From Chloroflexota bacterium (GTDB lineage Bacteria; Chloroflexota; UBA11872), in contig JAPPNP010000037.1 of the NCBI GenBank assembly GCA_028873795.1, positions 1 through 36,323 of the forward strand: a DNA stretch of 36,323 nt. Direction: 5' to 3'. A model generated the notes under the pieces. That model was not told the DNA's origin. It worked only from the letters and a program-made list of their open reading frames with translations, and did not search any database. This document shows positions 7,054 through 32,942 of this stretch, piece after piece. Both the position numbers and the translations under genes were made by a program. Positions within the stretch are counted from its first letter, which is position 1; each line of letters begins with the position of its first letter.

Positions 7054-8133
7054 ATGCGATCGAAACGCCTTGTGCAAATCGTCGGCTGCCATGCGGAAGG
7101 CGAGGTGGGTGATGTCATCATCGGAGGCGTCGCTCCGCCTCCCGGCGACACGCTCTGGGAACAATCACGCTTCATCGCCCGCGATCAGTCGCTGCGCCGC
7201 TTCGTGTTGAACGAGCCACGCGGCGGAGTGTTCCGCCACGTCAACCTGTTGGTGCCACCCAAGGATTCTCGCGCCGACATGGGCTTCATCATCATGGAGC
7301 CTGAGGACACGCCTCCGATGTCGGGATCGAACAGCCTCTGCGTCGCCACAGTGCTGCTGGAGACCGGCATCCTGCCGATGACCGAGCCCGAGACCGTAAT
7401 GGTTCTGGAAGCCCCCGGCGGCCTCATCCGGGTTCACGCCGCGTGCAGTGACGGGCGCGTCGAGTCCGTTCGCGTGCACAACGTGGCATCCTTCGCGGCG
7501 CGGCTCGGGGCCGCGCTCGAGGTCGAGGGGCTTGGAACGCTTTCCGCCGACACCGCTTACGGCGGCGACAGCTTCGTGCTGGTGGACTCTGAGGCGCTCG
7601 GCTTCGCGCTCCGCCCCGACGAGGCACACGACATTGTGGAGATGGGCATCCGCATTACCCGTGCGGCAAACGAGCAACTGGGTTTCGCCCATCCCGAAAT
7701 CCCTGACTGGCGCCATATCTCATTCTGCCAGATCGCCGCGCCACTCCAGGACGTCGAGGGCGTTCCGACGGGCCGCAATGCCGTGGTGATCCGGCCAGGC
7801 AAGATCGATCGATGCCCGACCGGCACCGGCTGCTCCGCACGCATGGCGGTGCTGCATGCGAGGGGCGAGCTTGGGGTCGGCGGCCGCTTCCGCGGGGTGT
7901 CGATCATCGACTCCGTCTTCGACTGCCGCATCGAGGAGAAAACCACATTGGGCGGGCGCCCGGCGATCCTGCCGTCGGTCTCGGGCCGTGCGTGGCTGAC
8001 CAGCACGACCCAACTTCATCTCGACCCGCGTGATCCGTGGCCGGAAGGCTATCGGCTCAGCGACACCTGGCCTCCCGGCGCGGAGGTCCCTGCCCCCGCC
8101 CCAAATGACGGCGCGCAAGGCAGCCACGATTAG
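7054..8133 (+). CDS. Proline racemase family protein with Ser/Thr catalytic pair
   Basis: Member of the proline racemase / hydroxyproline epimerase / trans-3-hydroxyproline dehydratase superfamily, 359 residues against about 310-350 in the family. In canonical racemases two Cys act as acid and base, in MCGH and DRSPCGTG. Here the first motif reads MSGSNS with Ser90, and the second DRCPTGTGC with Thr256 at the usual Cys place; Cys254 and Cys260 flank it. Thr at the second site is known from trans-3-hydroxy-L-proline dehydratase, Ser at the first from some epimerases. I do not know a characterised enzyme with both. HyuB and HyuA follow on the same strand, so the substrate may be a cyclic amino acid, lactam or hydantoin rather than proline. 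The fold assignment is firm; the reaction is not. Confidence 0.85.
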
Positions 8134-18831: not shown

Positions 18832-19677
18832 CTACGCAGGCGCGGGCGCGCCCGGGACGGGGAGCGTCGGGATGCGGTTCACATCCTTGTACAGCAGGTA
18901 ACGAAACAACCCCGGTCCGCCGGCGTAGCAGGCCTGCGGACAGAAGGCGCGCAGCCACATGTAGTCGCCGGCCTCAACCTCCACCCAGTCCTGGTTGAGC
19001 CGGTACACCGCCTTGCCCTCGAGCACGTAGAGTCCGTGTTCCATGACATGGGTCTCGGCGAAGGGAATCGATCCCCCCGGCTGGAAGGTCACGATGTTCA
19101 CGTGCATGTCGTGGCGCATGTCTCCCGAGTCCACGAAGCGCGTCGTCGCCCACGCGCCGTCCGTATCCGGCATCGGCACCGGCTCAACGTCGTGGTCGGA
19201 CGTCACGAAGCACTCGGGCGCGTCGACACCGTCCAGAGGCTGATAGGCCTTTCGGATCCAGTGGAAGCTGGCGGGCTCGCGTCCCGCGTTCGTGATCGTC
19301 CAGCGCTTGCCCGGCGCGACATAGGCATAGCCGCCCGGAGAAAGCGTGTGTTCGGCATTGTCGAGCGCAAGCCGCAATTCCCCGGCCATGACGAACAGCA
19401 CGCATTCGACGTGCGTGCTTGGCTCGGGCTGGTCGCTGCCGCCTCCCGGCTCGATCTCGACGATCGACTGGGAAAACGTCGTCGCGAATCCTGCGACCGG
19501 ACGTGACAGCACCCACGCGCGCGTGCCCTGCCAGTGCGGGAAGTAGCTGGTGACGATGTCGCGCAGCACCCCTCGCGGAATGATCGTGTACGCCTCGGTG
19601 ATCACGGCGCGGTCGGACAACAGCGCCTGCTGCGGCGGAAGGCCGGCCACCGGCGTGAAGTAACGGTCTGTGCTCAT
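18832..19677 (-). CDS. allE: (S)-ureidoglycine aminohydrolase-like bicupin protein
   Basis: Manganese-dependent bicupin enzyme family that converts (S)-ureidoglycine to (S)-ureidoglycolate and ammonia in allantoin breakdown (AllE/YlbA, UGHY). The 281-residue protein has an N-terminal cupin (about residues 55-140, with ALDNAEHTLSPGGYAYVAPG) and a C-terminal cupin with the metal site THVMEHGLYVLEGKAVYRL and the family-typical WVEVEAGDYMWLRAFCPQAC then GLFRYLLYKDVNR end. The ATG at 19677 begins MSTDRYFTPVAGLPPQQALL; a longer in-frame start at 19713 is less likely. It leads a two-gene - strand unit with the RutD-like hydrolase. No allantoinase or allantoate amidohydrolase is in the window, so it may act on a related ureide. 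Confidence 0.87.
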   Translation of the reverse strand: MSTDRYFTPVAGLPPQQALLSDRAVITEAYTIIPRGVLRDIVTSYFPHWQGTRAWVLSRPVAGFATTFSQSIVEIEPGGGSDQPEPSTHVECVLFVMAGELRLALDNAEHTLSPGGYAYVAPGKRWTITNAGREPASFHWIRKAYQPLDGVDAPECFVTSDHDVEPVPMPDTDGAWATTRFVDSGDMRHDMHVNIVTFQPGGSIPFAETHVMEHGLYVLEGKAVYRLNQDWVEVEAGDYMWLRAFCPQACYAGGPGLFRYLLYKDVNRIPTLPVPGAPAPA

Positions 19678-19786
19678 CGGTCGGCCAAATCCTGCCCAAT
19701 GCTCATCGCGCACATTCCTCCTTCGACGTTGCCGCGCAGCGCCCGGCCGCGTGCCGCGAGAGCCGCACTGTAGCCGCTTGCGGAAA

Positions 19787-25138: not shown

Positions 25139-25891
25139 ATGAGCCTGCTCGAAGTTCGCGAACTGTCTCGGCATTTCGGCGGCCTTGCCGCCGTGAACAA
25201 CCTCACCTTCACCGTGGATGAGGGCGCGATACACGGGCTGATTGGCCCGAACGGCGCCGGCAAGACCACCACCTTCAACGTCATCAGCGGCTTCTACAAG
25301 CCGACTGCCGGTGACGTCGTCTTCGGCGGGCGCAAGATATCCGGGCTGCGCCCGAGCCGGATCGCGGCACGGGGGGTGGTCCGCACCTTTCAAGCGACCA
25401 CGCTCTTCCAGGAACTCACCGTCCTGGAGAATGTGCTGATCGGCTGCCACATGCAGTCAAGAGTGGGGCCGTTCAGCGCGCTGTTGGGCACCAGTCGTCA
25501 CGCCGAACGGGAGTCGGAGGCGCGCGCCATAGAAATTCTCGAGTTCATGGGCCTAGGCGACCGCCGCGACGAAGAGACGGTCAACCTGCCGCACGGCCAC
25601 CAGCGGGCTCTCGGCATCGCGGTGGCGCTGGCGGCCGAGCCCAAGCTGATCTTGCTCGACGAGCCGTTCACCGGCATGAACCCCGAAGAAACGCGGCAGA
25701 TGATGGTGTTGGTCGAGCGCGTGCGCGGCCAGGGTGTCACCATCCTCCTGGTCGAGCACGATATGCAGGCTGTCATGGGGCTTTGCGACCAGATCACGGT
25801 GTTGAGCTTCGGCGAGTTGCTGGCGGAAGGCACACCCGACGAAATCCGGTCCGATCAGGCTGTGATCGAAGCCTATCTGGGTACCGCCTGA
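25139..25891 (+). CDS. livG: Branched-chain amino acid-type ABC transporter ATPase (LivG-like)
   Basis: Nucleotide-binding subunit of the HAAT importer family that moves branched-chain amino acids, urea, amides and other small molecules. The 250-residue protein has Walker A GPNGAGKTT, VVRTFQATTLFQELTVLENV, a signature of unusual form LPHGHQRALGIAVALA, Walker B LILLDEPFTGMNPEE and the switch His in LLVEHDMQAVMG. Its stop abuts the ATG of livF (TGAATG). No livH, livM or binding-protein gene is present on either side, so the permease must be encoded elsewhere. The name reflects family, not a proven substrate. Confidence 0.88.
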   Translation: MSLLEVRELSRHFGGLAAVNNLTFTVDEGAIHGLIGPNGAGKTTTFNVISGFYKPTAGDVVFGGRKISGLRPSRIAARGVVRTFQATTLFQELTVLENVLIGCHMQSRVGPFSALLGTSRHAERESEARAIEILEFMGLGDRRDEETVNLPHGHQRALGIAVALAAEPKLILLDEPFTGMNPEETRQMMVLVERVRGQGVTILLVEHDMQAVMGLCDQITVLSFGELLAEGTPDEIRSDQAVIEAYLGTA

Positions 25892-26599
25892 ATGCTGTTC
25901 CAGATCAAGTCGCTCTCGGTCCACTACAACAAGGTGAGGGCATTGCGCGCGGTCTCGATGGAGGTGGACGAAGGCGACATCGTGACCCTGATCGGGTCCA
26001 ACGGCGCAGGCAAGAGCACGACGCTGCGCACGGTCTCGGGCCTCGTGCGCGCAAGCGCGGGCGAGATCTGGTTCGACGGTACGCGCATCGACAAGCTCCC
26101 CCCCGACGAGGTGGTCAAGCGTGGCATCGCCCATGTGCCCGAGGGCCGGCATGTCTTCCCCGAGCTTACGGTCTTCGAGAACCTGAACACGGGCGCCTTC
26201 CTCCGGCGCGACAAGGACGGGATCAAGCAGGATCTCGAAGCCGTCTACGAGCGCTTCCCGCGGCTCAAGGAGCGCCGTACCCAGTACGGCAAGACCCTTT
26301 CCGGCGGCGAGCAGCAGATGCTGGCGATCGGCCGGGCGCTGATGGCGCGGCCCAAGCTGCTACTACTGGACGAGCCCTCCCTCGGGCTCTCGCCGGTGAT
26401 GGTGCAGGAGATTGCCAAGATCGTCGTCGATATCAACGCGCGCGGCGTACCCGTGGTGCTGGTCGAGCAGAACGCGGAACTCGCGCTCAAGCTCGCACGC
26501 TACGCCTATGTGCTGGAAACCGGCCGCGTCGCGCTCGAGGGCGAGGCTGAGCGGATTCGTGACGACCAGCACGTCCGCAAGGTGTACTTGGGCGGCTAG
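25892..26599 (+). CDS. livF: Branched-chain amino acid-type ABC transporter ATPase (LivF-like)
   Basis: Partner ATPase of the LivG-like protein, 235 residues. Walker A is GSNGAGKSTTLRTVSGL, followed by GIAHVPEGRHVFPELTVFEN, typical of LivF; the signature is LSGGEQQMLAIGRAL, Walker B LLLLDEPSLGLSPVMVQE, and the switch region VVLVEQNAELAL carries Gln-Asn where His is common, as in other LivF proteins. The start directly follows the livG stop. Thirty bases separate it from the ETF fusion gene on the same strand, which may be cotranscribed with it. Confidence 0.89.
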   Translation: MLFQIKSLSVHYNKVRALRAVSMEVDEGDIVTLIGSNGAGKSTTLRTVSGLVRASAGEIWFDGTRIDKLPPDEVVKRGIAHVPEGRHVFPELTVFENLNTGAFLRRDKDGIKQDLEAVYERFPRLKERRTQYGKTLSGGEQQMLAIGRALMARPKLLLLDEPSLGLSPVMVQEIAKIVVDINARGVPVVLVEQNAELALKLARYAYVLETGRVALEGEAERIRDDQHVRKVYLGG

Positions 26600-26629: not shown

Positions 26630-29600
26630 GTGGAAACCCGCGAGCTTTTCTGGGAGATCACCTCCCTCGGTCATACGCTCTTCTTCGTGGTGGCGGGCGC
26701 GGCGATGGCGGTGGCTGCGGCCGGCGTCGCGTGGCACGTCTACCGGTACGCCCGAGCACGCAGAAGCCCGGTCCCGGTCCATCCGTGGCGCGGCTTTTGG
26801 CGCATGGTGTTCGACGTCTTCACGCAGCGGACCGTGCATCGGCGCGACCGTCGCGCCGGCCACGCCCACACGCCGATCATGTACGGCTTCCTCCTGCTGC
26901 TCGCCGCAACCAGCATCATCACGGTCGAGTACGACATCTCGGAGCCGTTCTTCGGCTTCACCTTCTGGCACGGTGACTTCTACCTCGCCTTCAGCCTGAT
27001 CGCCGATCTCGCTGGCCTCGGGCTCATCGTCGGCGTCGTCTACATGATGTGGCGCCGCTGGCAGGTCAGGCCCCCGAAACTCGCTTACCGGCGAGAGTAT
27101 CGTGGCGAGACGGAGACGCGGCCGGACGCCCGCGCCTGGGAATGGGACGACACGCTGTTCCTGTGGGCGCTGCTTCTGATCGGGGTGACCGGATTCCTGC
27201 AGGAAGGCGTGCGGCTCGCCATGGATCAGCCGCCGTGGGGGCCGTGGTCGCCCGTGGGCTGGGTGCTCGCCCAGATCTTTCTCGGGCTTGGCATGGACGA
27301 GGCGGCGGCCGCCGCCGTGCGCCGGGCCAACTGGTGGATCCACGGCATCGCCGCTCTGGCTTTCATCGCCGCCATTCCCTGGACCAAGGCGAAGCACATA
27401 ATCGCCGTGCTCGGCTCGCTGTCCACCCGCGATGCGCTGGCCCTGCGCCGCCTTCCAAAGCCTGCCCTTCCCCGCACGGCCGTCGCGGAGGATGCCGAGC
27501 CGGAAGTCGGTTTCGGCAGCATCGCCGAGTTCTCGTGGAAGGACCTGCTCAACCTCGACGCCTGCACCAAGTGCGGCCGCTGCCACGAGGCCTGCCCGGC
27601 CACCGCGAGCGGCGCACCGCTCAGCCCGCGCGACCTGATTCTCGATCTGCGCACTCATGCCGCGCGCAGCGCCTTCAAACCGGGAGCGAACGCTGCGGCG
27701 CTGATCGGCGACGTGATCGAAGCGGAGACCCTCTGGTCATGCCGCTCCTGCGGCGCCTGCATGGAGATTTGCCCGGTCGGTATCGAGCACCCGCCGATGA
27801 TCGTGCAGATGCGGCGCCAGTTGGTCGAGGACGGCGCCATGGAGCAGCAGCTCCGCGATACCCTCGACATGATCGCCAATCGCGGCAACAGCTTCGGCGA
27901 GAGCCCGCGCAGCCGCGGCGGCTGGACCGCGGCCCTCGAGTTCCCGGTCAAGGATGTCCGCGCCGAGCCCGCCGAGAACCTCTGGTTTGTGGGCGACTAC
28001 GCCTCCTACGACCCGCGCAACCAGGACGTCTCGCGCACGGTCGCGCGGCTGTTCCGCGCCGCCGGCCTCGACTTCGGCCTGCTCTACGAGAGCGAACGGA
28101 CCGCCGGCAACGACGTCCGCCGGGTCGGCGAGGAAGGCCTCTTCGAATCGCTAACCGAGCACAATCTGACGGCGATGGGTGAGGCTAAGCAGTTCGACGC
28201 AATCGTGACCACCGACCCCCACAGCTACAACACCATCCGCAACGAGTATCCCGACTTCGGCGATGTCGCGCCGATCCGCCACTACACCAGCGTCCTCGCC
28301 GAGCTGCTGGAGAGCGGGCGGCTGACCGTGGTCGAACCTCTCGGCAAGCGGGTGACGCTCCACGACCCCTGCCATCTCGGCCGGCTTAACGGCCACTACG
28401 ACGAACCGCGCCGGGTGCTGGAACTGATCGGCTGCGAGCTGGTCGACATGCCCCGCTGCCGCGACAACTCGTTCTGCTGCGGCGCCGGCGGCGGGCGCAT
28501 CTGGATACCCGATCCCGTCGGCAAGGAGCGCCCCGCCGAGAACCGGATGCACGAAGCGGCGTCTCTCGGTAATCTCGATACCTTCGTCGTCTGTTGCCCC
28601 AAGGACCTGACCATGTTCGAGGACGCCCGCAAGACCAGTGGCCACGAAGGCGACTTCGTCGTTCAGGACCTGGCGGAGCTGGTGGCCGAGGCCATCGACC
28701 TAAAGAGCCTTGATCTCAAGGAGGTGCCGGCGCTGGTCGATCGCATCACCGAGGCCGCTGCGACCCGTATCGCCGATACCGTGGCGGACCGGCTGGCCGA
28801 GCGCCTCGCCGAAACCGTGACGGAGCGGGTACTGAGCGAGCTCGCCACACGCGCCCCGACGCTCGCAGCAGCGCCGCAGCCCGCGCCAGCGGAGGAGCCG
28901 CAGGAGCAGACGGAGGCGACGCCAACCGCCGGGCCGTGGCGTGCAGCGCCGGCCAGCGCGGCGACGCTGCCTCCCTACGAAGTGCCGGCGAAAGAAGGCC
29001 CTCGCGTGCTCGTTGCGGTCAAGCGGGTCGGCGAGTTGAACCCCGACTTCGCCATCGACGAAGCCGGGGGAACGATCGCCGACGAGCATTTCGAGTACGA
29101 GCTGAACGAGTGGGACGAGGCGGCGCTGGAGGAAGCACTGCTGCTGACCGAGAAGCTCGACGCAGGCGAGGTCGTCGCCGTCACCATCGGCCCGGAGGAT
29201 GCCGAGGAGACCCTGCGCCGCGCGCTCGCCAAGGGTGCGCACCGGGGTGTGCGGGTGTGGGACGAAAGTCTGCGCGACGCCGACCCGGTGACCGTCGCCC
29301 GCGTCCTCGCCGGAGTCGCCTCGCAGGAATCGCCGGACATCGTGCTCACCGGCGCGCAATCGGCCGATCTCGGCCACGGCGCCACCGGCTCGGCGCTGGC
29401 CCGCATCCTCGGCCTGCCGCACGCGGCCGTCGTTCTCGGCATCGAGTGGGACGGCGCGGACGCGATGACCGTCACCCGCGAACTTGAAGGCGGCATGCGC
29501 CATCAGCTTTCGCTGCCGGCGCCGGCGCTGCTCACCGTGCAGACCGGCGGCAACACGCCGCGCTACGCCACCATGCGCATGATCAAGCAGGCCAAGAAGA

Positions 29601-29773
29601 AGCCGATCGCCGTAGTGGATGGCGCAGGTGTCGGTCTCGATCAGGCGGGCGCCGTCGTGCGCCGGCTCTACGAGCCGCCCAAATCCGGGCGCGCGGCGAT
29701 GATCGAAGGCGACGCCGAAGCGGTTGCCAAGGCGATCGCGGACATCATTCGAGACAAACGGGGAGAAGTGTGA
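26630..29773 (+). CDS. Membrane iron-sulfur oxidoreductase fused to ETF beta subunit
   Basis: A 1047-residue fusion. Residues 1-265 form a membrane domain of about five or six segments (e.g. 17-40, 84-104, 124-148, 181-203), like nitrate-reductase gamma-type subunits. Residues 300-400 carry two [4Fe-4S] motifs, CTKCGRCHEACP (Cys312 on) and CRSCGACMEICP (from Cys371). Residues 560-660 hold the CCG domain (VTLHDPCHLGR, NSFCCGAGGG, VVCCPKDL). After an amphipathic and Ala/Pro/Glu-rich linker (about 680-785), residues 790-1047 are a nearly complete ETF beta (VLVAVKRVGELNPDF, VLTGAQSADLGHGATGSALA). The first part resembles DgcB and ETF:menaquinone oxidoreductases, which pass electrons from ETF to quinone. 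GTG at 26630; the stop overlaps the etfA start (TGATG). Confidence 0.88.
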   Translation: METRELFWEITSLGHTLFFVVAGAAMAVAAAGVAWHVYRYARARRSPVPVHPWRGFWRMVFDVFTQRTVHRRDRRAGHAHTPIMYGFLLLLAATSIITVEYDISEPFFGFTFWHGDFYLAFSLIADLAGLGLIVGVVYMMWRRWQVRPPKLAYRREYRGETETRPDARAWEWDDTLFLWALLLIGVTGFLQEGVRLAMDQPPWGPWSPVGWVLAQIFLGLGMDEAAAAAVRRANWWIHGIAALAFIAAIPWTKAKHIIAVLGSLSTRDALALRRLPKPALPRTAVAEDAEPEVGFGSIAEFSWKDLLNLDACTKCGRCHEACPATASGAPLSPRDLILDLRTHAARSAFKPGANAAALIGDVIEAETLWSCRSCGACMEICPVGIEHPPMIVQMRRQLVEDGAMEQQLRDTLDMIANRGNSFGESPRSRGGWTAALEFPVKDVRAEPAENLWFVGDYASYDPRNQDVSRTVARLFRAAGLDFGLLYESERTAGNDVRRVGEEGLFESLTEHNLTAMGEAKQFDAIVTTDPHSYNTIRNEYPDFGDVAPIRHYTSVLAELLESGRLTVVEPLGKRVTLHDPCHLGRLNGHYDEPRRVLELIGCELVDMPRCRDNSFCCGAGGGRIWIPDPVGKERPAENRMHEAASLGNLDTFVVCCPKDLTMFEDARKTSGHEGDFVVQDLAELVAEAIDLKSLDLKEVPALVDRITEAAATRIADTVADRLAERLAETVTERVLSELATRAPTLAAAPQPAPAEEPQEQTEATPTAGPWRAAPASAATLPPYEVPAKEGPRVLVAVKRVGELNPDFAIDEAGGTIADEHFEYELNEWDEAALEEALLLTEKLDAGEVVAVTIGPEDAEETLRRALAKGAHRGVRVWDESLRDADPVTVARVLAGVASQESPDIVLTGAQSADLGHGATGSALARILGLPHAAVVLGIEWDGADAMTVTRELEGGMRHQLSLPAPALLTVQTGGNTPRYATMRMIKQAKKKPIAVVDGAGVGLDQAGAVVRRLYEPPKSGRAAMIEGDAEAVAKAIADIIRDKRGEV

Positions 29774-30738
29774 TGGCGGGGATTCTCATCGTCGCCGAGC
29801 ACTTCGACGGCGTCCTGCGCGACGTCACGCAGGAGATGATCGGCGCTGCCACGGAGGTCAGGGACGGCCTCGGCGGGCCGCTCGCCGTTCTCATCATCGG
29901 TCAGGATGTGGACGCGCTCGCCTCTGCAGCCAACCTGGAGGGAGTGGACGAGATCGTCACCATCGCGCAGCCCGATGGACACTTCGATCCCGCCCTCTAC
30001 GAGGAGGCAGTTTGCGCCGTCGCCGAGGCGCGGCAGGTCCGGCTGGTGCTGATCGGCCACACCGCCGCCGGTATGGCCTTCGGGCCGGCGGTTGCCGCGC
30101 GGCTCGGGTCGGGCTTCGCATCCGATGTCTTCGGGCTCTCGGTCGAGGGTAGCAAGCCCATCGCGACCCGCAGCGGCTACGGCGGCAAGGTCTCGATGGA
30201 CCTCGCCTTTCCGGACAAGCCCGTGATCGTGCTGACGCTGCGAGGCGCGACCTTCAAGGCGCCGGAGGCGGCCGGCAACGCGAGCATCCTTCCCTTCGCG
30301 GTCGATCTGGACACCGTGCCCGGCGCTGGCAACCACATCGATTATCTGCCGGCGCCGCCCGCTGACGTGGACATCGGCAAGGCCGAGTTCATCCTCTCGG
30401 TCGGGCGCGCCCTCGGCGAAGACAAGAACCTTCCTCAGTTCGCGGGGCTCGCAGAACGGCTCGGTGCCACCCTTGGCTGCTCGCGCCCGGTTGCGGATTC
30501 GGGCTGGCTGCCCAAAGCCCACCAGGTCGGCCAGTCAGGCACGATCGCGGGCAACTGCTCGCTCTATCTGGCTTTGGGTATTTCCGGCGCGGTGCAGCAC
30601 CTGGCCGGTATGAAGCACGTGGACACCATCATTGCGGTCAACACCGACCCGGAGGCGCCGATCTTCAACGTCGCGCACCACGGCGCCTGCGTGGACATCT
30701 TCGAACTCGCCGAGGCGCTCGAGCGCGAGTTCAACTAA
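29773..30738 (+). CDS. etfA: Electron transfer flavoprotein alpha subunit
   Basis: FAD-binding subunit of ETF, 321 residues, expected to pair with the ETF beta domain of the preceding fusion. The N-terminal domain begins AGILIVAEHFDGVLRDVTQE. The C-terminal FAD domain has FILSVGRALGEDKNLPQF, SRPVADSGWLPKAHQVGQSG, GISGAVQHLAGMKHVDTIIA and VNTDPEAPIFNVAHHGACVD, the standard signature of EtfA. The ATG at 29773 overlaps the fusion stop by one base and has GGGAGAAG upstream; a GTG three bases earlier is possible. The gene converges with the gamma-butyrobetaine dioxygenase-like gene, with 15 bases between the two stops. Confidence 0.94.
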   Translation: MAGILIVAEHFDGVLRDVTQEMIGAATEVRDGLGGPLAVLIIGQDVDALASAANLEGVDEIVTIAQPDGHFDPALYEEAVCAVAEARQVRLVLIGHTAAGMAFGPAVAARLGSGFASDVFGLSVEGSKPIATRSGYGGKVSMDLAFPDKPVIVLTLRGATFKAPEAAGNASILPFAVDLDTVPGAGNHIDYLPAPPADVDIGKAEFILSVGRALGEDKNLPQFAGLAERLGATLGCSRPVADSGWLPKAHQVGQSGTIAGNCSLYLALGISGAVQHLAGMKHVDTIIAVNTDPEAPIFNVAHHGACVDIFELAEALEREFN

Positions 30739-30753
30739 CCCGCCGCTCCGACT

Positions 30754-31869
30754 TCACTGCAGCGGCGCCGAGCGCTCCAGGACGCGAATGCGACTCAGCA
30801 ACTGGTCGCGGTCCACATAGCAGCCTTGTAGATGCCGCCCTCCGGTCGTGGGGTCGAATGCGGCGCGCCCGTGCAAGACCCGCCGGTTGTCAAAGATCAG
30901 AAGCTCGCCCGGATTGAGCCGGTAACAGCACTCCAATGCCGGGTCGCGAATCACCGCCGCAAAGGCACGCAGCGCCCGGCAGAGCGCTCCCATGCTCTTG
31001 GTCGGGGCGCTGATCGCATCCATCACAGCAAAGTTGAACCGTATCTCCGTGACCGCGCCAGTCTCGTCCAGGGCGATGGTGGGTGCCCTGAAGCGAATGT
31101 CCGAGTCACGGTCCTCAAAGTGGAAATCGATCGGGCATTGGCTGAGTAGCCGGAAGGCAGCGGGCTCCCGCCGGCGCAGCGTCTCCGCCGCTTGGAAGCC
31201 ATCCACCAGTATGGATTCGCCGCCGTCGGCGTCGTTCTTCAGGCAGTGCAGCAGCTGGTAGTCGGGCGGTCGCTCCCAGTTGGGCAAATCGGTGTGACAC
31301 GGTAGCCCGAGCGCCGTATAGGCGTTGCTGTTGGGCTCGAGCTTCGAGACGACATCGAAATGCTCGCCGAAATTGGTCGCCCGTGCGGGGCCAATGAGCC
31401 CCGCGAGGGCGAGGACACTGAGCGGCTCGCGCGGCGTGTTGCGCAGGACGGCGACTCCGAAGTCGCGCAGGAGACGGAGCCAGTCCAACAGAGTACCGTC
31501 GCTGCCCGCGACCGCGTCATGCTCCGCGCTCGGTATGGCTTCCGAAAGCTCGGCGCCCCACGTGGCAGGCGCTGGGCCGCATTGCGAAGCTTCGTCGGCG
31601 CCGCCGCGATGTCCCCTGAGCCAGTCCGAATCGTAGTCGCTGACATGGTCCTCGGGCCGCCATTGGACCCGCAGTCCGCCCGCCTCGGTAATCGAGACCG
31701 ACCCGGCATCGAGATCGGCCGGCACGGAGAGCGGATCGAGAATTCGTTCCAGGGTGTCCGGGTGCCGGCACAGCCGGCAACCGCAGTTGTCCCGCAGCCA
31801 TAGGTGATGGAAGGTCCCGGTGGTGCCGTCGTCCCAGGTGACGCGAATAGAGCGCGGCTGCCGCCTTAT
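30754..31869 (-). CDS. Gamma-butyrobetaine dioxygenase-like Fe(II)/2-oxoglutarate oxygenase
   Basis: TauD-fold oxygenase of the gamma-butyrobetaine/trimethyllysine hydroxylase family, about 371 residues. The N-terminal zinc domain has WLRDNCGCRLCRHPDTLERI with Cys in the same CxCxxC spacing as human BBOX1. The iron ligands are His and Asp in LPCHTDLPNWE and the distal His in NRRVLHGRAAFDP. The N terminus must lie near SIRVTWDDGTTGTFHHLWLR, yet no ATG, GTG or TTG is in frame there. I give the ATA at 31869, which overlaps the Rieske stop as ATAA and is followed by AAGGCGG; an ATT at 31848 is another choice. An in-frame ATG at 32178 would bury 103 unrelated residues in the Rieske gene. Substrate likely a betaine. 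Confidence 0.82.
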   Translation of the reverse strand: MRRQPRSIRVTWDDGTTGTFHHLWLRDNCGCRLCRHPDTLERILDPLSVPADLDAGSVSITEAGGLRVQWRPEDHVSDYDSDWLRGHRGGADEASQCGPAPATWGAELSEAIPSAEHDAVAGSDGTLLDWLRLLRDFGVAVLRNTPREPLSVLALAGLIGPARATNFGEHFDVVSKLEPNSNAYTALGLPCHTDLPNWERPPDYQLLHCLKNDADGGESILVDGFQAAETLRRREPAAFRLLSQCPIDFHFEDRDSDIRFRAPTIALDETGAVTEIRFNFAVMDAISAPTKSMGALCRALRAFAAVIRDPALECCYRLNPGELLIFDNRRVLHGRAAFDPTTGGRHLQGCYVDRDQLLSRIRVLERSAPLQ

Positions 31870-32942
31870 GCTGCGGAGTCGACGGCCTCCCGTACCAGCT
31901 CGTGAAAGTAGAACACGCCGTTCTCGTGCAGCGGGCTGAGCGGGCCCGCTTCGTATACGCCGGCCTCTAGGTTCTCCTGAATGATCGGCGTGATCCATTG
32001 GTCCTCCTTCGAAACCTGGACGCCGTATTCCAGCGTTGCCTCGAAGTCCTCCATGCTGATCGCGTCCGGCCGCCAGTAGTCGTAGACCAGACGTGTCTGG
32101 CGCGGTCCGACCGGCTCCATCCGCATGAAGGAAAGCCCGTCCGGATAAGAGTTGAACGCAAAATGAGGAAAACGCCAACCGAAAGCGCCGGGATGGGTCG
32201 AGCTCCCCTTCGCCGGAGCCTCATGCAGGCTGCCACCTTCGAAGTTGATGACCCTGTAGCGCTTCCAGTCGAGATCACGGTTCAATCCGGGGTGCAGCGG
32301 GGGGATGTGATAGCCCTCCTGGTAATTGTCTACGTAGGTCTTCCAATTGCAGTCGACAAGAAACTCCAAGCGCCGTCCGAAATCGACCTGCGCCGGCGCG
32401 GTTCGTTCCACCACGTCCTCGATCGGACCGAGCCACTCGATGAGCGGCGGCGCCTCCGGATCCAGGGAGACGAAGATCTGGCCACGCCAGACATCCACCG
32501 AAACTGGGAACAAAGACAGCTCGTCCTTCGGGAAGTCCGGCGCCTCGCCGAACAACGGCACATGGTCGAGCGCACCGTCGGAGCGGTAGCGCCAGCCGTG
32601 ATAAGGGCATTCGATGGCGGCGCACTGTCCGCTCGACTCCGTCAGCAGCTTGGAGGCCCGGTGCCGGCACACGTTGTGGAATCCGTGGAGCGTTCCATCT
32701 TCCGAGCGCCGCACGAAGAGCGGGAACTCCACCGGAGCGGCCGTGAAGTACTGCCCCGGCTCGGCCACTTCGCCCTCGCGCCCGATCCAGAGCCAATGGC
32801 GCGAGAAGATGCTTTGTCGTTCGATTTGATAAATGTCGGGGTCGGCGTACCACCGCGCCGGCAGCGCCCACACGGTGGCCGCTTCCATCCGTTCTTTGAT
32901 GCCACCGTCGGGGTCGTTGGCCGACCGTTCTGCAGACGCCAT
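31866..32942 (-). CDS. Rieske non-haem iron oxygenase alpha subunit (quaternary-amine monooxygenase type)
   Basis: Terminal oxygenase, 358 residues. The Rieske [2Fe-2S] site is CRHRASKLL...CPYHGWRY (about residues 92-117), and the mononuclear iron site is NWKTYVDNYQEGYHIPPLHPGL with two His and a Glu three residues before the first His. In CntA-type carnitine monooxygenases the bridging residue between the two centres is Glu rather than the usual Asp, and the same is seen here. Related GbcA demethylates glycine betaine. The ATG at 32942 has GAAGGGTGAGGG upstream. No reductase gene is adjacent, so an external ferredoxin reductase is needed. The gene is coupled to the gamma-butyrobetaine dioxygenase-like gene. 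Stachydrine or other betaines are alternatives. Confidence 0.85.
   Translation of the reverse strand: MASAERSANDPDGGIKERMEAATVWALPARWYADPDIYQIERQSIFSRHWLWIGREGEVAEPGQYFTAAPVEFPLFVRRSEDGTLHGFHNVCRHRASKLLTESSGQCAAIECPYHGWRYRSDGALDHVPLFGEAPDFPKDELSLFPVSVDVWRGQIFVSLDPEAPPLIEWLGPIEDVVERTAPAQVDFGRRLEFLVDCNWKTYVDNYQEGYHIPPLHPGLNRDLDWKRYRVINFEGGSLHEAPAKGSSTHPGAFGWRFPHFAFNSYPDGLSFMRMEPVGPRQTRLVYDYWRPDAISMEDFEATLEYGVQVSKEDQWITPIIQENLEAGVYEAGPLSPLHENGVFYFHELVREAVDSAA

Follow-up and report, generated by a model that had tools for sequence, protein, structure and literature searches.

How does an electron-transfer flavoprotein (ETF), the textbook free electron shuttle, behave when one of its subunits is built into a membrane enzyme? 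The question is raised by a single gene in the contig analysed here at its full length of 36,323 nucleotides (JAPPNP010000037.1 of assembly GCA_028873795.1; hereafter the window), which encodes an EtfD/DgcB-type ETF:quinone iron-sulfur oxidoreductase, a linker and an ETF beta domain as one protein of 1047 residues (26630..29773, + strand, GTG start, uninterrupted frame). No structure of an ETF:EtfD complex is available to show how ETF meets such an oxidoreductase (PMC13083937). We report that the covalent fusion is real and that it probably serves amine demethylation, as an ETF:quinone oxidoreductase tethered to the membrane and a hub shared by several dehydrogenases.

The initial annotation described a single chain holding a membrane domain, two [4Fe-4S] motifs, a CCG domain and a nearly full ETF beta, with ETF alpha following at an overlapping stop and start. 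The chain is as described, and Pfam assigns residues 309-385 to a 4Fe-4S dicluster, 575-657 to the CCG domain and 815-997 to ETF. The ETF beta domain (residues 791-1047; 29000..29770, +), however, is complete rather than nearly so, since residues 792-1045 align with residues 2-263 of the 264 of 1o94_C, from the complex of Methylophilus trimethylamine dehydrogenase (TMADH) with its ETF (E 1.4e-59). The gene for the FAD-binding ETF alpha (29773..30738, +; start at 29770/29773) does overlap the end of the fusion: at the junction, GTGTGATGGCG, the TGA stop at 29771-29773 runs into the etfA ATG at 29773 (TGATG). ETF alpha finds its best structural match in 1o94_D (E 1e-83); with 1o94 best for both subunits the ETF is of the TMADH (wETF) type, and the pair retains the FAD-domain arginine of wETF (the CSRP arginine). 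The initial annotation did not note this type, nor the bis-histidine heme b ligands and the degenerate first CCG domain described below.

The reading frame across the junction is genuine. Among 79 related loci from a species-level genome collection, picked by similarity to the query, the two halves are fused in one frame in 34 and encoded by separate genes in 43, while the remaining two (L038, L065) stop at a contig end before EtfB. The linker is, moreover, under coding constraint: between the window and four relatives of 91-94% identity it has a dN/dS of 0.15-0.23, and the domains on either side have 0.06-0.11. Together, these observations exclude a frame error or a missed stop without recourse to reads. 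The fused loci span the alpha-, beta- and gammaproteobacteria and include isolates (among them Azoarcus sp. Aa7, Castellaniella defragrans, Mesorhizobium, Blastochloris and Tabrizicola), and residues 1-1045 of the fusion have an unbroken match in a plasmid record of Shinella sp. PSBB067. Fused and split forms separate fully in the iron-sulfur, EtfB and EtfA trees (SH-aLRT 100), with one fused clade in each, for which a single fusion event is the simplest reading, although the sample was picked by similarity and the outgroup branches are long.

The fused form is nevertheless uncommon, occurring in about 2% of the sampled class. An even sample of the class yielded strong matches in 3 of 142 other genomes, and each of these has the EtfB motif in the same frame; a second even draw gave 9 matches in 377 genomes, including the centre genome, one split-looking locus and one cut at a contig end. 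Within the order of the nearest relative a close form is found in 14 of 22 genomes, several of them interrupted by contig ends, and a fifteenth carries a seemingly unfused protein of 41% identity. It had been foreseen that the fused form might prove already widespread and studied. The form is indeed present in many genomes, but no paper describing the fusion was found: all of its parts are known, and for the covalent EtfD/DgcB-EtfB joint we found no description in the open-access literature that was searched, itself an incomplete sample.

Amongst solved structures, the iron-sulfur half is best matched by EtfD of Mycobacterium smegmatis (9ojn, E 1.9e-67), with only weak matches to heterodisulfide reductases beyond it. 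An AlphaFold2 model of the fusion (mean pLDDT 81.7, pTM 0.70), which draws on 57 sequences from the window and the loci, likewise retrieves 9ojn first with Foldseek (E 2.2e-35), followed by the 1o9x ETFs. The model gives a membrane domain of five long helices (residues 12-41, 74-108, 115-146, 165-199 and 224-248; 26663..27373, +). Cofactor ligands were assigned by alignment with EtfD, using the ligands given in PMC13083937, and followed through 77 sequences (34 fused and 43 split). The predicted heme b ligands, His80 and His256 (EtfD His78 and His241), are invariant in all 77, with His256 lying just outside the five-helix domain in a helix at 254-266. The fusion also retains Arg143 and Arg317, and not the equivalent of Arg150. 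A third membrane histidine, His238 (27341-27343), is invariant in the same 77 sequences and is Glu in EtfD; it may be relevant to a second heme, such as has been reported in EMO.

The two [4Fe-4S] motifs (Cys312/315/318/322 and Cys371/374/377/381; 27563..27772, +) keep all eight cysteines in every one of the 77 sequences. The HdrB/EtfD-like region that follows (residues 450-657; 27977..28600, +) has a degenerate first CCG domain, and none of the four cysteines that bind the linear [3Fe-4S] cluster D1 of EtfD is kept, their places being taken by Asp456, Thr491, Asp529 and Ser532. A loss of D1 has been reported for DgcB and FadF, and was read there as a sign that the ETF FAD passes its electrons straight to D2 (PMC13083937). 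For the noncubane D2 cluster itself, four cysteines and a histidine (Cys581, Cys616, Cys617, Cys656 and His531) are invariant in fused and split forms, and the sixth ligand, a fifth cysteine in EtfD, is an equally invariant Asp659.

The genes around the fusion point to its dehydrogenase partners. At least 17 fused loci, and most split ones, have a TMADH-like gene (1djn, E 7.5e-303) as the next gene upstream, and four loci (L042, L040, L062, L044) carry the operon livH-livM-livG-livF-TMADH-fusion-etfA-gcvT. In the nearest relatives of the window (G064/G066) this operon is in two parts: one joins SBP-livH-livM to TMADH and gcvT (L147; L122 with L146), and the other, elsewhere, is livG-livF-fusion-etfA (L148). 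The window has the second arrangement, with livG-like and livF-like ABC ATPase genes (25139..25891 and 25892..26599, both +), remnants of the same operon, leading into the fusion. No TMADH-type dehydrogenase is encoded on the contig or beside the fusion in its close relatives, because the operon is broken in two in this lineage. The distal enzymes of G066 and G064 (L122 and L131) hold the cysteine that carries FMN (Cys30), the four [4Fe-4S] cysteines and Y169/H172/D267; with this TMADH active-site set kept, trimethylamine or a similar tertiary amine would be a reasonable guess at the substrate.

The genomes of related alphaproteobacteria suggest that a single fusion is shared among several dehydrogenases. 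Each of G061-G066, all metagenome-assembled genomes (MAGs), has one fusion, one canonical EtfAB and one ETF-QO, and a second DgcB-like protein was found in none of the six. In the same genomes a TMADH query gives 8-16 matches each, and in the two that were checked the full signature (Cys30, four [4Fe-4S] Cys, E344/R442) is present in five dehydrogenases (G066) and seven (G064). It is this combination, of a lone fusion without a further DgcB-like protein and five to seven TMADH-type dehydrogenases, that points to a shared, tethered hub.

We infer the following sequence of events. The separate, FAD-carrying ETF alpha would pair with the fused ETF beta domain, whose recognition loop would dock dehydrogenases of the TMADH family (6-S-cysteinyl-FMN and [4Fe-4S]) and so bring electrons to the ETF FAD. 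A flexible arm would then return the FAD domain to the D2-type cluster on the same chain, from which electrons would pass through the two [4Fe-4S] clusters and heme b to quinone. In the lineage of the window its main client would probably be the TMADH-like enzyme whose gene lies elsewhere, together with SBP-livHM and gcvT. The candidate recognition loop (residues 977-991; 29558..29602, +) reads T981-M982-R983-M984; the split relatives carry S-L194-R-G (or S/T/A) there. Met982, in place of the Leu194 of wETF, and Met984 occur in all 34 fused sequences; the 43 split sequences all have Leu194, never Met, and Gly, Ser, Thr or Ala at position 196, and five positions further on Lys/Arg in fused stands against Ala/Ser in split.

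Whether the tether moves is a separate matter. The long amphipathic helix earlier proposed for a linker at about 680-785 is found in the model at residues 696-737 (42 residues; 28715..28840, +), with a moment of 0.58 at 91 degrees per residue that none of 2000 shuffles reached; at a plain 100 degrees the moment is low, the amphipathic period lying nearer 91 degrees. The helix gives way to a flexible Ala/Pro-rich stretch (738 to about 765; 28841..28999, +) that ends in the conserved motif W..aP..a..LppYevPaKeGpR, and the model is of low confidence at 736-763 and well predicted again in the ETF beta that follows. Most fused members share a helix and an Ala/Pro-rich stretch closing in LPxYxxPxKxG, and four loci (L037, L042, L055, L066) have shorter linkers with the helix partly or wholly missing. 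Such a helix-plus-flexible layout resembles known swinging-arm linkers. We give roughly even chances to the proposal that ETF acts as a swinging arm in the manner of a lipoyl domain, the tethered FAD domain, with its re-tuned loop, visiting several amine dehydrogenases and returning to its own relay.

The alternative that survives best, though it is unlikely, is that fusion secures no more than equal dosage and co-assembly, with ETF docked permanently on the iron-sulfur part, a static linker and no kinetic role. Fusions of adjacent operon genes are common, and where the system is split, etfB does sit next to the iron-sulfur gene or close by. The helix and disordered stretch retained by most fused members, the conserved end motif and the purifying selection on the linker all speak for more than a passive joint, and an ETF sealed against the iron-sulfur part would not easily dock a dehydrogenase as well.

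The initial annotation foresaw that fusion would tether ETF to the membrane, which the covalent join to a membrane oxidoreductase supports, and proposed that the tether could change ETF from a shared carrier into a dedicated wire from a dehydrogenase to quinone. The second idea is not supported, with no such dehydrogenase on the contig or next to the fusion in close relatives and with five (G066) and seven (G064) full-signature enzymes to a single fusion. One client per operon is plausible in the 17 or more fused loci with one TMADH-like gene directly upstream; as an account of the system as a whole, the dedicated wire is somewhat less likely again than the static joint. The other candidates for a local partner, the gamma-butyrobetaine dioxygenase-like and GbcA-like Rieske oxygenase genes just downstream (30754-32942, -), were ruled out as dehydrogenases, being oxygenases of other families. 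They are kept in close relatives and possibly belong to another quaternary-amine pathway.

Several points count against a shared hub with a moving ETF. Some of the dehydrogenases could use the canonical EtfAB and ETF-QO, and the genes were counted in related MAGs, whose completeness is not stated, rather than in the window's own genome. The domain arrangement in an AlphaFold2 model of the fusion alone cannot show swinging, and the type of the putative D2 cluster is uncertain because Asp659 stands in for a cysteine. Dehydrogenase positions 344 and 442, which we take to lie at the electron exit of TMADH, are E/R in 17 of 17 enzymes adjacent to fusions and V/Y in 36 of 37 adjacent to split systems. 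This pair was rejected as a signature specific to the fusion, histamine dehydrogenases sharing both residues; its co-segregation and that of the EtfB loop are one phylogenetic split, and weak evidence by themselves.

A system that bifurcates electrons or runs in reverse (quinol to acceptor), after the manner of EMO and enoyl-CoA respiration, is very improbable: EMO, whose direction is reversed in syntrophs (PMC8805022), does belong to the wider family, but the ETF of the fusion is nearest to TMADH ETF, well ahead of bifurcating ETFs, and fused loci are associated with amine dehydrogenases. That an assembly or sequencing artefact merged two genes, a suspicion invited by a window that is a single MAG contig, probably misbinned, has practically no chance of being correct, being already refuted by relatives with the same frame in independent genomes, cultured isolates and the Shinella plasmid amongst them, and by the constraint on the linker.

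The window is a whole contig (C30 of 89) of a 3.18 Mb MAG. Its probable misbinning, which leaves the fusion unaffected, is suspected because the gene is absent from five congeners and from the sampled family members, to which the first 20 kb of the contig give only short matches of about 66-86% and no long DNA match, whereas MAGs of Rhodospirillales and other alphaproteobacteria give matches of 90-94% and have the neighbouring genes in the same order (L148). On a reading of isolate names these relatives would be sponge-associated. Elsewhere the window carries genes above curated cut-offs for a trans-3-hydroxy-L-proline dehydratase (7054-8133) and an (S)-ureidoglycine aminohydrolase (18832-19713).

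For structural work, a natural covalent fusion would offer a complex both stable and stoichiometric, and through linker mutants it makes the choice between shuttle and tether testable. It also gives sponge-type alphaproteobacteria, rich in TMADH-type dehydrogenases, one likely point at which methylated amines enter respiration, and the expansion of the TMADH family in G061-G066 is worth a substrate survey.

Of the known systems, M. smegmatis EtfD (9ojn) shares with the fusion the five-helix domain with bis-His heme b ligands, the two [4Fe-4S] motifs, the CCG domains and, presumably, a role as an ETF:quinone wire, and has a long, disordered C-terminal extension modelled by AlphaFold3 as contacting ETF (PMC13083937). 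EtfD is, however, unfused and works in beta-oxidation rather than in an amine context, and the fusion lacks its D1 ligands and has Asp for one D2 cysteine. DgcB of the dgcAB-fixAB systems of Pseudomonas and Vibrio, likened here by description and not residue by residue, shares an operon with the flavin dehydrogenase DgcA and ETF and is reported to lack D1 (PMC12093977, PMC13083937), but it is a chain separate from ETF beta, and in the window no dehydrogenase is adjacent. EMO of Syntrophus, also compared by description, is a membrane heme and iron-sulfur ETF:quinone oxidoreductase, though reported to be diheme and to work with a separate ETF (PMC8805022). The split systems of Methylophilus, Methylophaga and Paraburkholderia (L068-L110) form the sister clade, with the same gene order and about 51-56% identity in the iron-sulfur part; they differ in their separate genes and recognition loop, and often in an intervening leucine-rich-repeat-variant (LRV) protein (about 477 residues; L079:5027-6460), which separates etfB from the iron-sulfur gene in 28 of the 43 split TMADH operons and was found in no fused locus. 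The ETF of Methylophilus methylotrophus (1o94-1o97, 3clr-3clu) is the nearest solved ETF for both subunits, yet it is a free soluble heterodimer with L194/G196 where the fusion, tethered to its own quinone oxidoreductase, has M982/M984.

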